From an uncultured Phocaeicola sp. (lineage in GTDB: Bacteria; Bacteroidota; Bacteroidia; Bacteroidales; Bacteroidaceae), in NCBI GenBank assembly GCA_944319745.1, contig CALUET010000017.1, positions 1-61,405 on the forward strand: DNA of 61,405 nucleotides, read 5' to 3'. Positions 35,827-53,115 of the stretch are shown here, in pieces; position 1 is the stretch's first letter, and every line of letters begins with the position of its first letter. The notes beneath the pieces are model-generated. The model was not told where the DNA came from and ran no database searches. It saw nothing but the letters and a program-made list of their open reading frames with translations. Position numbers and translations under genes: made by a program.

Positions 35827-36161
35827 GCTGCATTCTCTTTTTTAATATTGCAAAAGTATTGCATTGTAAGGATTTATCGGCGTGTTGGCGATGCAAAAAA
35901 CCGAAAAAAATATAAACTATACCGAACTTTATTTACTTCCTTTCTTTTCTGCAATCCGTAATTTTGCAATACGGACATGAGAACGAGCCGGAGGTCGGAT
36001 ACTTCGTGCCGCAAGTGTGAAACAAACCGGCGGAGAGTTGTTGTGTTGGGATGCCTGTTTACGGGCTGTGTTGTGCGCGGGTTTTTGGAGAAATGTGCAG
36101 TTGTGAACCGGACATTTTCGTGAACGAACAGTGGGAAAAGGGAAATAATCAAATAAATATT
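35827..36161. other. Divergent regulatory region and long leader
   Basis: No gene. It contains the regulator's promoter (minus, 35851-35858), the reductase promoter with its operator pair (35901-35966), and about 190 bases of leader before the reductase start. Confidence 0.6.
35901..35966 (+). promoter_or_regulatory. Regulon promoter 1 (aldo/keto reductase 36162)
   Basis: Half-sites CCGAAAAAAATA at 35901 and CCGAACTTTATT at 35922 (21 bp apart), then TAATTTTG at 35959, 37 bp after the start of the second half-site. There is no TTTG -33 box, as expected for activator-dependent promoters. The half-sites have A where the others have T at position 4. Confidence 0.6.
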
Positions 36162-37016
36162 ATGGCAATGAAAGAAGTAAGACTGAACAATGGAGTAATG
36201 ATGCCGGCCATCGGTTTCGGCCTTTATCAGGTTCCGGAGAATGAAACGGAGCGGGTAGTGAACGAGGCCATTGAGGTAGGTTACCGCATGTTTGACACGG
36301 CAGCATCTTATTTTAACGAGGAACAATTGGGAAATGCCATCAGGCACAGCGGACTTAAACGCGATGCGTTTTTTATAACTACCAAGTTGTGGGTGCAGGA
36401 TTACGAGTATGAAGATGCACTGCGTGCTTTCGATCTCTCGATGAAAAAACTTGGTTTGGATTATCTTGACCTTTATTTGATGCACAAACCGTATGGAAAT
36501 TATTATGCCGCATGGCGGGCAATGGAACGGCTTTACAAGGAAGGACGTATCCGTGCCATCGGGGTAACGAGCTTTTCTTGCGAACGTTTGCAGGACTTAT
36601 TCCTGCACAATGAAATAAGACCTGCCGTGAACCAGCTTGAAACGCATCCGTTCTTTCAGCAAAAGTCTGCCAACCTTTTCTTGGAACAAGAAGGCATCAG
36701 GCATGAAGCATGGGCGCCTTTTGCCGAAGGGAAGAACGACATTTTCAATCATCCTCTGCTGAAAAGCATTGCAGAAAGGCACGGAAAGAGTGTCGGGGCG
36801 GTCGTTCTCCGCTGGCTTAACCAGCGTAACATTGTAGTTATTCCCAAGACCATGCGTAAAGAAAGGATGACAGAGAACTTTAACATTTTCGACTTTTCGC
36901 TTTCCGACGAAGAAATGAATGCCATCGGTAGGCTTGATACCGGGAAAAGCCCGATTTATGATGATATGGATCTGCCGACCGTCAGAGGTATCGGACTATA
37001 TAAAATTCATGATTAA
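36162..37016 (+). CDS. Aldo/keto reductase
   Basis: 284 residues from ATG 36162, the start that gives the canonical MKEVRLNNGVMMPAIGFG. The catalytic tetrad is Asp45, Tyr50, Lys75 and His108 (in FDTAASYF, TTKLW and LMHKP). The C-terminal NADPH segment IPKTMRKERMTENF is present. It reduces aldehydes or ketones with NADPH in the cytoplasm; the closest functional neighbours are 2,5-diketogluconate reductase-type enzymes. It is divergent from the AraC gene and carries regulon promoter 1. Three paralogues of this type lie in the island. Confidence 0.9.
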   Translation: MAMKEVRLNNGVMMPAIGFGLYQVPENETERVVNEAIEVGYRMFDTAASYFNEEQLGNAIRHSGLKRDAFFITTKLWVQDYEYEDALRAFDLSMKKLGLDYLDLYLMHKPYGNYYAAWRAMERLYKEGRIRAIGVTSFSCERLQDLFLHNEIRPAVNQLETHPFFQQKSANLFLEQEGIRHEAWAPFAEGKNDIFNHPLLKSIAERHGKSVGAVVLRWLNQRNIVVIPKTMRKERMTENFNIFDFSLSDEEMNAIGRLDTGKSPIYDDMDLPTVRGIGLYKIHD

Positions 37017-37235
37017 AAAGCAGGTAGTAAGAAAAATTATATGGAAAAGTTGGCATCGGCCGGGGCTGTATGAAGTATGTTTACGTAACCGCCGGTGCAT
37101 GAAGCAGGTAAAATCTTTTTGAGAGATGGTATAGGAGGTAGAAAATCTTTATCGGAGCATGACGCAATGAAATGGAAGTGTCAAGCCATTGTTCCGATAG
37201 ATTAAAAAATATATAACTGAATAAAGCAGCAGACA

Positions 37236-38111
37236 ATGAAAACAATCAGATTGAACAACGGCATCGAAATGCCTCAATTAGGCTATGGCGTGTGGCAGAT
37301 TACTCCGGAAGAGTGTGAGCATTATGTGTCAGAAGCCTTGAATGTGGGTTATCGTTCCATCGACACGGCACAGGCATATTACAATGAAGAAGGCGTGGGA
37401 GAAGCGATTCATGAGTGCGGAATTCCCCGTCGGGAGCTGTTTATTACTACCAAAGTGTGGATATCGAATGCAGGAGACGAGCGTGCGGCACGCAGCATTG
37501 ACGAGTCTCTCCGCAAATTACGGACAGATTACATCGACTTGTTGCTTATCCATCAGCCGTTCGGCGACTATTATGGTACTTATCGTGCGATGGAAAAGGC
37601 TTACAAGGCCGGCAAGGTACGCGCCATCGGGCTGAGCAATTTCTATGATGCTCGTTTTGTTGACCTGGCAGAAAACGTGGAAATTAAACCGGCGGTGGTG
37701 TAACTGGAGACACATGTCTTCACGCAACAACAGAAAATGCGCGAGTTTTGCAAACCATATGGCACACACGTGATGGCATGGAGCCCGTTGGCACGTGGCA
37801 TGAACGGGCTGTTTACAAATGAAACACTGAAAGCCATTGGCGAAAAATACGGTAAGGATAATGCGCAAATAGCCTTGAAATTTCTCGAGCAAGAAGGAAT
37901 TATTGTCGTTACACAGTCGACCAAAAAGGAACGTATGGCAAACAATCTTCATCTTGACAGCTTTATGTTGACGGAAGAAGACATGAATGTTATCCGTCGT
38001 TTGGATACAGGGAAACCATTGTCTGCCGTATTTACAGATCCGGAACTGGCGAAATTCCTACTGGAATATGACAGAAATAATAATCCTGCCTATAAAAAAC
38101 AGAAACAATAA
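37236..38111 (+). pseudogene. Aldo/keto reductase with premature stop
   Basis: A close paralogue of the preceding gene: MKTIRLNNGIEMPQLGYG at the start, Asp43, Tyr48 and Lys73 conserved, and the NADPH segment TQSTKKERMANN near the end. An in-frame TAA at 37701-37703 (codon 156) sits where the family has a conserved Asn-Gln pair before LETHVF; the same frame continues to the natural stop at 38111. The truncated product would lack the cofactor-binding half. Either it is a recent pseudogene or the stop is a sequencing error. It may be transcribed from the upstream promoter, 219 bases away. Confidence 0.85.
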
Positions 38112-38201
38112 AAGCAGGAATGCTACTTGTTATGCAGAAGAAGTGATACGAACAAAAGGGTAAATAAGATTGTTTTTCGGGATGATTTGTTGGTAATATA
38201 T

Positions 38202-38267
38202 CCGTAACTTGTGTACAATTATCCGTATTTCGTATTTTTCAAACTTCCTTTTAATTTCATATTTTTG
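38202..38267 (+). promoter_or_regulatory. Regulon promoter 2 (FMN reductase 38292)
   Basis: Half-sites CCGTAACTTGTGTA at 38202 and CCGTATTTCGTATT at 38223 (21 bp apart), TATTTTTG at 38260, 37 bp after the second. Confidence 0.7.
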
Positions 38268-38291
38268 TGGTAAACAAAAAAGAACAAGAAT

Positions 38292-51868: not shown

Positions 51869-51874
51869 TAAAAA

Positions 51875-52972
51875 ATGAAACGTATCAATTACCTTCTTTT
51901 ATCCGCCCTTCTTGCTTTGTGTGCAGGTTGTGGCAGACAATCGTCCTCTTCTGGCGAGGAAAAGACGACCGACAGTATTCTTGTTCTTCGTGAGCAAGGC
52001 AGTTTTTTTGTCGGCGGTTCGGTTGTAACCGCACCGGGTTCTTACGACACACACCAACCTTTGAAAGCAAACGGCCAGACGTTGCACGGCGATCATGCCT
52101 ATGTTTTTTATCAGATTCCTGCAGGTTCCCGTAAAAATCCCCTTGTCTTTTTACACGGCGCGGGGCAGTCTGCCAAAACATGGGAGACAACTCCTGACGG
52201 ATGTGAAGGCTTTTCAATAATCTTTCTGCGGCGGGGATTCAGCACTTACCTGATAGATCAGCCGCGACGTGGGCGTGCCGGACGCAGTACGTTGGATGAA
52301 ACCATTAAAGCTACGCCCGATGAGCAGTTCTGGTTCGAGAACTTTCGCATGGGAGTATGGCCGGAATATTACGAAGGAAGCCAGTTCCCTCAGTCGGAAG
52401 AAGCATTGGACCAGTTCTTCCGTCAAATTACTCCAAATACAGGAGCGTACGATGAACAACTGATTGCTGCAGACTTGGCCGCATTGATGGACAAGATTGG
52501 CGGGGGCATCCTCGTCACCCATTCGCAAGGCGGCGGTCCGGGTTGGCAGACAGCCATACGTAGTGACAAGGTGCGTGCCATTGTTTCTTATGAGCCGGGC
52601 AGCGGCTTTGTCTTTCCCGAAGGCGAAACGCCCGAACCCTTGCAGACCATCAGTCCGTTTGGGCCATTGACTGCTACTGCCATTCCTTTGGCAGACTTTG
52701 AAAAGCTGACTCGTTTTCCCATTATTATCTATTATGGTGATTATATCCCCGCAGAACCAAGCAACAATTGGGCTATGGACAGCTGGCGTGTGCGCCTGCA
52801 AATGGCGCGTTTGTTTGCCGCATGCATCAACCGACATGGCGGGGATGCTACGGTAATACACCTGCCCGATCAGGGAATCACCGGCAACTCACACTTCCTC
52901 TTTGCGGAACGAAACAATGTGCAGTTGGCAGACTTGTTGTCTGCATGGCTGAAAGAGAAAGGGTTGGACTAA
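51875..52972 (+). CDS. Lipoprotein alpha/beta hydrolase
   Basis: 365 residues with lipobox CAGC (cysteine 19), so anchored to a membrane. The hydrolase domain has [19 protein letters not shown], the nucleophile elbow [11 protein letters not shown] and the histidine in [11 protein letters not shown]. It resembles the lid-containing esterase proteins often found next to aldo/keto reductase genes in Bacteroidales. Substrate unknown; small esters or lactones are likely. It ends the permease-AKR unit, followed by a strong terminator. Confidence 0.82.
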
Positions 52973-53004
52973 GACTTTTTTCTTATATCCCCTATATCAT
53001 AAAT

Positions 53005-53044
53005 AAAGCATCTTTGGAACGGAAGTTTTGAAGATGCTTTTTTG
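53005..53044 (+). terminator. Terminator after the permease operon
   Basis: AAAGCATCTT (53005-53014) pairs with AAGATGCTTT (53031-53040), followed by TTTG, giving a U-run of six in the RNA. Confidence 0.85.
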
Positions 53045-53048
53045 TTTT

Positions 53049-53115
53049 CGTTGATATTGGTGTATTAATCTGTAATCTGTGTATGGATGCAGGATGGCAT
53101 TCGTTATACTTTTGT
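53049..53115 (+). promoter_or_regulatory. Regulon promoter 7 (decarboxylase-cupin 53144)
   Basis: Half-sites CGTTGATATTGGTG (weak) at 53049 and CTGTAATCTGTGTATGG at 53070 (21 bp apart), TACTTTTG at 53108, here 38 bp after the second half-site. Confidence 0.6.

Follow-up and report, generated by a model that had tools for sequence, protein, structure and literature searches.

Tandem operators upstream of seven promoters

We analysed a 61,405-nucleotide stretch of DNA from an uncultured Phocaeicola sp. (GenBank assembly GCA_944319745.1), which we call the window and which is contig C17 (CALUET010000017.1) of a 2.3-Mb draft genome in 24 contigs. Between positions 35901 and 53115 it holds seven promoters with a common arrangement of elements, a directly repeated pair of half-sites followed by the -7 box TAnnTTTG, together with the gene of an AraC-family regulator, here AraC2, that is our candidate for the protein reading these pairs. 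The genes downstream of the operators encode aldo/keto reductases, an FMN reductase, an exported DUF6282 protein, an iron alcohol dehydrogenase (Fe-ADH), an SBF-family permease, a CMD-cupin protein and flavodoxins (Table 1).

All distances are counted from first base to first base, with H1 and H2 denoting the first and second half-site. The seven pairs had been listed in a preliminary description of the window, and we found them at the same coordinates, with H1 and H2 21 bp apart, that is two helical turns, in all seven promoters. The distance from H2 to the TAnnTTTG box had been given as 37 bp in six promoters, which holds, and as 38 bp in one, which is wrong: it is 37 bp throughout. Each half-site is about 17 bp long and comprises two sub-motifs, CnGTAA and G(T/G)GTA, and the extended form CyGTAATCyGTGTATGG matches H2 at 45369, 49780 and 53070, as stated before. 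The view that the seven promoters share one operator is correct for the geometry but too uniform for the sequence. Three pairs (45348, 49759 and 53049) match the family operator closely, three (38202, 39276 and 41686) are of a looser type in which the second part of H1 resembles GTTACAA or GGTACAA, and the pair at 35901 is weak.

Table 1. Operators and associated features of the window, with pair scores from a matrix of 52 operators of other genomes
Feature	Position	Strand	-7 box	Rank	Pair score	Remarks
Strong operator, H1 45348, H2 45369	45348-45413	+	45406-45413	1	41.4	promoter of DkgA-like aldo/keto reductase gene 45449-46297
Strong operator	49759-49824	+	49817-49824	2	40.8	promoter of SBF/BASS-family permease gene 49850-50818
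Strong operator	53049-53114	+	53107-53114	3	35.7	promoter of CMD-cupin gene 53144-54211; flavodoxin genes then follow
Moderate operator	38202-38267	+	start 38260	5	14.1	promoter of FMN-reductase-like gene 38292-38906
Moderate operator	41686-41751	+	start 41744	6	11.8	promoter of Fe-ADH gene 41787-42968
Moderate operator	39276-39341	+	start 39334	9	7.3	promoter of exported DUF6282 gene 39365-40366
Weak operator-like pair	35901-35966	+	start 35959	40	-1.6	between AraC1 (35011-35826, -) and aldo/keto reductase gene; exceeds all 57 other -7 boxes
AraC-family regulator AraC2, proposed operator reader	43702-44634	-				
Operator in AraC2 own promoter, H1 44677-44693, H2 44698-44714	44677-44714	+				reads away from the AraC gene
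-7 box of AraC2 gene, TATCTTTG	44639-44646	-				
Hexapeptide acetyltransferase gene	44657-45253	-				between AraC2 and the 45348 operator; Pfam Hexapep

Scored with a half-site matrix built from 52 operators of other genomes, the seven pairs occupy ranks 1 to 3, 5, 6, 9 and 40 among 122,734 window positions; the 52 sites had themselves been picked with a window-derived matrix, so the ranking is not a fully independent test. At the same two offsets the other 57 TAnnTTTG boxes of the window all score below the weakest of the seven, their maximum being -17.7. The mean over the seven promoters is +21.4 for a lag of 21 and an offset of 37, and among the alternative lags (17-26) and offsets (33-41) just three cells exceed -10, with a top value of -3.9.

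Recurrence of the operator geometry

The preliminary description had proposed a scan of related genomes with a weight matrix of the 14 window half-sites, and such a scan finds the same geometry again. We applied the matrix to 77 loci that were retrieved by protein similarity to AraC2 alone and contain 1056 TAnnTTTG boxes. Scores of at least 8 are reached at 65 boxes for offset 37 and at 56 for offset 58, compared with at most five at any other offset from 17 to 89; many of the loci are related, and these counts are not independent events. The set holds 93 pair matches with H2 at 36-38 bp and H1 20-22 bp before H2, and exceptions to the distance of 37 bp occur at 33, 36 and 38 bp.

Among promoters of orthologous genes, the 21/37 pair is present in three of eight SBF-permease promoters (L009, L035 and L060) and missing from two. 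For the CMD-cupin gene it is found in L016 and L039 and was not found in L047, L050, L051 and L077; for the FMN-reductase-like gene it is found in L013 and was not found in L014, L031 and L041. The single orthologues recovered for the Fe-ADH (L066, with the -7 box 191 bp upstream) and for DUF6282 (L034) both have it. For the gene behind the 35901 pair, the loci compared contain no orthologue that reaches 55% identity.

Furthermore, the repeat emerges from a matrix-free test, in which 17-mers of 103 non-redundant AraC upstream regions were matched with themselves at every lag. The best cell is a lag of 21 at an offset of 36-39 from the own -7 box, with 8.35 of 17 against a mean of 4.58 (standard deviation 0.54). 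The lag-21 peak is seen for AraC2 relatives at 50-58% (n=25), 58-75% (n=17) and above 75% identity (n=26); at 38-50% (n=5) lag 21 leads too, at other offsets. Lag 21 is likewise foremost in the regions that group with two AraC2 paralogues of the own genome, with offset 30 the best for C5:7394 (n=10) and offset 38 for C2:199116 (n=10). The signal remains among regions with less than 60% ungapped identity. The half-sites are conserved, the stretch from -18 to the -7 box mostly poorly so, and positions -25 to -22, within H2, read TATG and not the TTTG of a -33 element.

Linkage of the operator to AraC2

The predicted structure of AraC2 has a cupin-like N-terminal domain of the AraC/RhaR type and a C-terminal domain with two helix-turn-helix (HTH) motifs, as in the AraC/XylS family. 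The operators in turn have the form of AraC-type class II tandem sites, direct repeats of about 21 bp whose near half-site keeps a fixed distance and extends over the upstream promoter element. In 52 of 73 loci the 700 bp upstream of the AraC2 relative contain a divergent pair that scores at least 12 on the window-only matrix; same-strand pairs and shuffled controls each give one locus of the 73. The operator is often in the divergent upstream region of AraC2 relatives down to about 50% identity. Window ranking, offsets in other loci, the matrix-free lag test and this divergent linkage together rule out chance as the origin of the pairs.

Across 295 genomes of the order, we compared close AraC2 relatives (E <= 1e-105, 34 genomes) with matches to a site model, R1 (E <= 0.01, 72 genomes), using a strict filter that can lose weak sites. 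The site is present in 33 of the 34 genomes with a close relative and in 39 of the 261 others (Fisher p = 1.8e-22, uncorrected for kinship); R1 training sites may partly lie in these genomes, L017 and G222 being the same contig. A reading of two tables places the site divergently, within about 300 bp, in at least 22 of the 34 genomes among the sites listed. The recognition helices NYFGDLIKK and YPHHLSR are near-constant in close AraC2 relatives. The protein alignment covers 42 of the 48 proteins first listed (L012, L018, L022, L029, L034 and L060 left out).

From the geometry and conservation of the pairs, their linkage to the regulator gene and the gene content behind them, we infer that the pairs are likely to be AraC2-binding sites, and that AraC2 would bind them as a dimer and act, in response to a signal, as a class II activator of the AraC family that controls its own gene and switches on those for aldo/keto reductase, flavodoxin, Fe-ADH and CMD-cupin proteins. 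The AraC2 gene had already been named as the best activator candidate, a choice well supported by the operator linkage in its relatives, and the picture of an AraC-type protein on tandem half-sites beside RNA polymerase agrees with geometry and linkage, with activation as its presumed outcome.

Several observations weigh against this assignment. Four of the seven window sites are moderate or weak, and three of the eight SBF-permease promoters (L016, L022 and L052) have a half-site at 33 rather than 37 bp. The training sites of R1 stand next to AraC2 relatives, a bias towards co-occurrence. A site at E <= 0.01 is found in 39 of the 261 genomes without a close relative. Among five strong sites of that kind, one (L122) lies by a paralogue, 52% identical to the one at C5:7394, and the short stretches fetched around the other four (L123, L126, L127 and L129) held no AraC gene. 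Conversely, G216 has AraC2 and no site was found in it; the close relatives in L041 (81%), L045 (68%) and L052 (82%) have no pair within 700 bp; and no matching site was found beside the relatives of about 46% identity in Flavobacterium, Chryseobacterium, Dyadobacter and Chitinophaga. The site-lacking relatives of the Flavobacterium, Dyadobacter and Chitinophaga type have different recognition helices. A contact between residue 285 and half-site base 12 fails as well: raw counts pair His with G (27 of 30) and Gln with A (25 of 38), but the two residue changes and eight base changes on the tree share no branch, so that this correlation is unusable as contact evidence. Finally, paralogues of AraC2 use similar operators, and the assignment of sites to proteins is thus not unique.

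The last point bears on the looser sites in particular. AraC2 may read 45348, 49759 and 53049, and the four left-hand sites may belong to a paralogue (C2:199116-200012 or C5:7394-8281) or to AraC1, a division of labour to which we give a little under even chances. The left-hand sites are of the looser type, and in L034 such a site is found 131 bp from a gene with 79% identity to the C2 paralogue. The promoters of the C2 and C5 paralogues have 21/37 pairs with different second halves. Against this division, looser sites follow a same-strand AraC2 gene, at about 90 bp in L013 and about 530 bp in L066. The 35901 pair has AraC1 as its divergent neighbour, but the recognition helices of AraC1 differ, and its group of nine non-redundant regions, its own included, lacks the 21-bp repeat; we therefore rejected it as a general reader, and it could still read the weak 35901 pair. 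AraC1 is also rare, with matches in seven others of the 295 genomes at E <= 1e-60 and 37-40% identity. A third AraC-family frame in the window (60106-60924), at 30% identity to AraC2, carries a single TAG stop, and its recognition helices are of quite another kind.

A reversed operator at the AraC2 promoter

The preliminary description lacked an eighth operator of the window. It falls within the terminal part of the acetyltransferase gene and precedes the -7 box of AraC2. We scanned the own promoters of AraC2 relatives with the window-only matrix in the 59 of 73 upstream regions that have an own TAnnTTTG box. A reversed pair lies 40 bp from the own -7 box in 20 loci, 41 bp in 22 and 42 bp in 2, compared with at most six at any other offset and one in forward orientation. 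The distance is 31 bp in the window and 30 bp in L013, one helical turn less than elsewhere.

In L051 and L062, and likewise at the C2 and C5 paralogues, the two promoters share one pair, whose distance is 37 bp to one -7 box and about 40-41 bp to the other. L009 and L018 have three tandem half-sites of which the middle one is shared. L088 (C5:5894-9781) holds two divergent AraC2 paralogues (48% and 37% identity) across one 21-bp repeat, 37 bp from one -7 box and about 41 bp from the other. The distances between two operators cluster near multiples of 10.5 bp (21, 52, 63, 73 bp and others). In a sample of 30 such distances, in which L044 lacks an own -7 box and L023 a divergent one, phasing gives R = 0.69 with a mean phase of -0.9 of 10.5 bp and p of about 5e-5 for 21 non-redundant loci, and p = 0.013 when each distinct distance is counted once.

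The backward operator upstream of the AraC2 promoter suggests that the regulator also controls its own gene. We tentatively propose, as a possibility on the doubtful side, a Bacteroidia-wide rule for this AraC subfamily: a two-way operator acting as class II forward (37 bp, divergent target) and as class I backward (40-42 bp, own box), helically phased when doubled, with paralogues of altered second half-sites splitting an electrophile-response regulon.

Genes behind the operator

Further operators occur elsewhere in the own genome. C3:198674 precedes a gene for a polyferredoxin-type 4Fe-4S protein, with the -7 box at 36, and the weak site C3:93905 precedes a CMD-cupin gene, with the box at 37; both had been missed before. 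A half-site pair at C20:16621 was not counted, having no -7 box at 37.

To survey other genomes, we chose 20 R1 matches (eight in G222, a genome of the same genus as the window genome, four in G095, three in G054, two in G251 and one each in G249, G187 and G103) and assigned the families behind them by BLAST or Pfam. These are an aldo/keto reductase, a CMD-cupin protein, two flavodoxins, an EFR1-type flavodoxin-ferredoxin, an Fe-ADH, two DUF3737 proteins, two 4Fe-4S proteins, two ABM monooxygenases, DUF362, DUF1893, two hydrolases and one TonB-dependent receptor; three of the proteins had no Pfam match. The distance is 37 bp at all 20 sites, partly by construction, because R1 includes the -7 box and the sites were of our choosing.

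In the window, the 45348 operator scores 55.7 bits on R1, whose training set includes it along with the six other window sites, and operators are listed before relatives of the 45449-46297 reductase in other loci. This reductase scores 223.6 bits on the DkgA model, below the cut-off of 425, and the window Fe-ADH is below the cut-off on every Fe-ADH model that it matched.

The recurrence of the arrangement beside AraC2 relatives points to an undescribed regulon of reductase and electron-carrier genes, which would comprise aldo/keto reductase, Fe-ADH, CMD-cupin, flavodoxin, ferredoxin and FMN-reductase genes. Since the regulon is largely reductive and of redox type, an electrophile or aldehyde signal is plausible, and judging from these genes the signal is probably a reactive aldehyde, a quinone or another electrophile.

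Proposed mechanism and its alternatives

Under the preferred reading, the two subunits of an AraC2 dimer would sit head to tail on the two 17-bp half-sites, 21 bp apart and on the same face of the DNA, and each half-site would present CnGTAA to one HTH and G(T/G)GTA to the other. The end of H2 covers the place of the missing -33 TTTG, where AraC2 may substitute for the element and recruit RNA polymerase in class II activation. A regulator standing in for the -33 element would explain the exact 37 bp to the -7 box.

The overlap of H2 with the -33 position would also suit a repressor that blocks RNA polymerase until a signal releases it, and some AraC-family proteins do repress. The sites, however, replace the TTTG element instead of covering one, and the sharp peak at 37 bp to the -7 box would be needless for a steric block, so that we regard repression of the target genes as unlikely. 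Even less probable, in our estimation hardly credible, is that the geometry reflects mere common ancestry of duplicated promoters, without selection for contact with the regulator. Many loci are indeed related, and the aldo/keto reductase genes of the cluster are paralogues, but the half-sites are kept while most of the stretch from H2 to the box is not, the site precedes unrelated gene families, and the lag-21 signal persists where the regions are dissimilar.

Repression is a more serious contender at the AraC2 promoter itself, where we see it as a realistic, if not the favoured, outcome of the backward site. In E. coli araO1 represses araC, negative autoregulation is common among AraC-family genes, and in the window and L013 the site is one turn nearer and could touch the -33 region. 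Yet the nearest half-site begins 40-42 bp before the -7 box in 44 of 59 loci, farther out than a -33 element would be, and a conserved TTTG is absent from the own promoters too. According to one report, moreover, RamA probably faces one way at its class I promoters and the other way at its class II promoters (PMC8811837). We consider weak positive control from a reversed class I site somewhat more likely than repression.

Relation to known regulators

Transcription-factor sites of Bacteroidota are, to our knowledge, rarely described for processes other than sugar use, and this analysis provides a base-exact operator together with a named candidate regulator, a list of genes and a rule for their promoters. 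Neither AraC2 nor its operator nor the two-way spacing rule was found described in the open-licence papers searched.

The architecture resembles that of E. coli AraC, which at I1-I2 of araBAD occupies tandem 17-bp half-sites 21 bp apart, the near one over the upstream promoter element, and whose gene is divergent and autoregulated. AraC2 would share with it the half-site spacing, promoter overlap, divergent regulator and autoregulation and, in the predicted model, the folds of both domains. It differs in half-site sequence, in the Bacteroidota promoter with its -7 TAnnTTTG and in the reductase regulon, and arabinose-type sensing is not indicated.

Another comparison is with E. coli YqhC, one of whose targets, YqhD, is an iron alcohol dehydrogenase. 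According to the passages available, YqhC is an AraC-type activator of the aldehyde reductase YqhD and of DkgA that lies divergent to its targets and responds to glyoxal and other aldehydes (PMC5297802, PMC6115493). Both systems have an AraC-type regulator divergent to its targets. In the window, operators stand at putative Fe-ADH and DkgA-type reductase genes, which score below the cut-offs of the respective models; the yqhD promoter, in the same passages, has a SoxS-like sequence and a 24-bp palindrome and not a 21-bp direct repeat (PMC5297802, PMC6115493). We rejected orthology of AraC2 and YqhC, as their alignment is limited to the HTH part (27% of 114 residues). Should the signal indeed be an electrophile, AraC2 would be a Bacteroidales counterpart of YqhC from a different AraC subfamily.

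The passages seen on Bacteroides RhaR, also of the AraC family, describe a predicted direct-repeat operator with 21-bp periodicity (PMC3870299). RhaR differs from AraC2 in its rhamnose genes and separate motif, the distance to the -7 box not being given in those passages (PMC3870299), and no rhamnose gene is among the AraC2-operator targets that we looked at. The preliminary statement that no description of the operator was known thus stands for the operator itself, which we did not find in open-licence papers, but not for the architecture, which is known, with 21-bp repeats for Bacteroides AraC regulators in the parts seen (PMC3870299). In the available part of PMC11253607 the terms direct repeat, half-site and tandem were not found. 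For MarA, SoxS and RamA, the passages available describe one DNA-binding module that sits one way round at the -35 element of class II promoters and the other way round at class I promoters, where it lies further upstream (PMC8811837). They are small two-HTH proteins on single boxes, in contrast to the dimer-like tandem boxes of the AraC2 operator.

Further observations

The second aldo/keto reductase gene of the cluster (37236-38111) looks broken, its frame stopping after 155 residues, and by eye 37737-38111 in another frame resembles the remainder of an aldo/keto reductase. Behind the CMD-cupin gene, the flavodoxin gene at 54224-54895 has a stop near 54631, with flavodoxin-like residues going on in the same frame. 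The carboxylesterase match at 56165-56701 covers positions 4-149 of a 515-position profile and is probably a gene fragment.

Cys149 and Cys180 of AraC2 are near-invariant in relatives down to about 46% identity and are possible redox-sensor residues. Furthermore, records that bear the labels Coprenecus, Parabacteroides, Bacteroides, Prevotella and even Akkermansia (L009-L042) have AraC2 proteins of 77-88% identity, which exceeds what the genus labels suggest and may reflect either transfer between genera or mis-binning.

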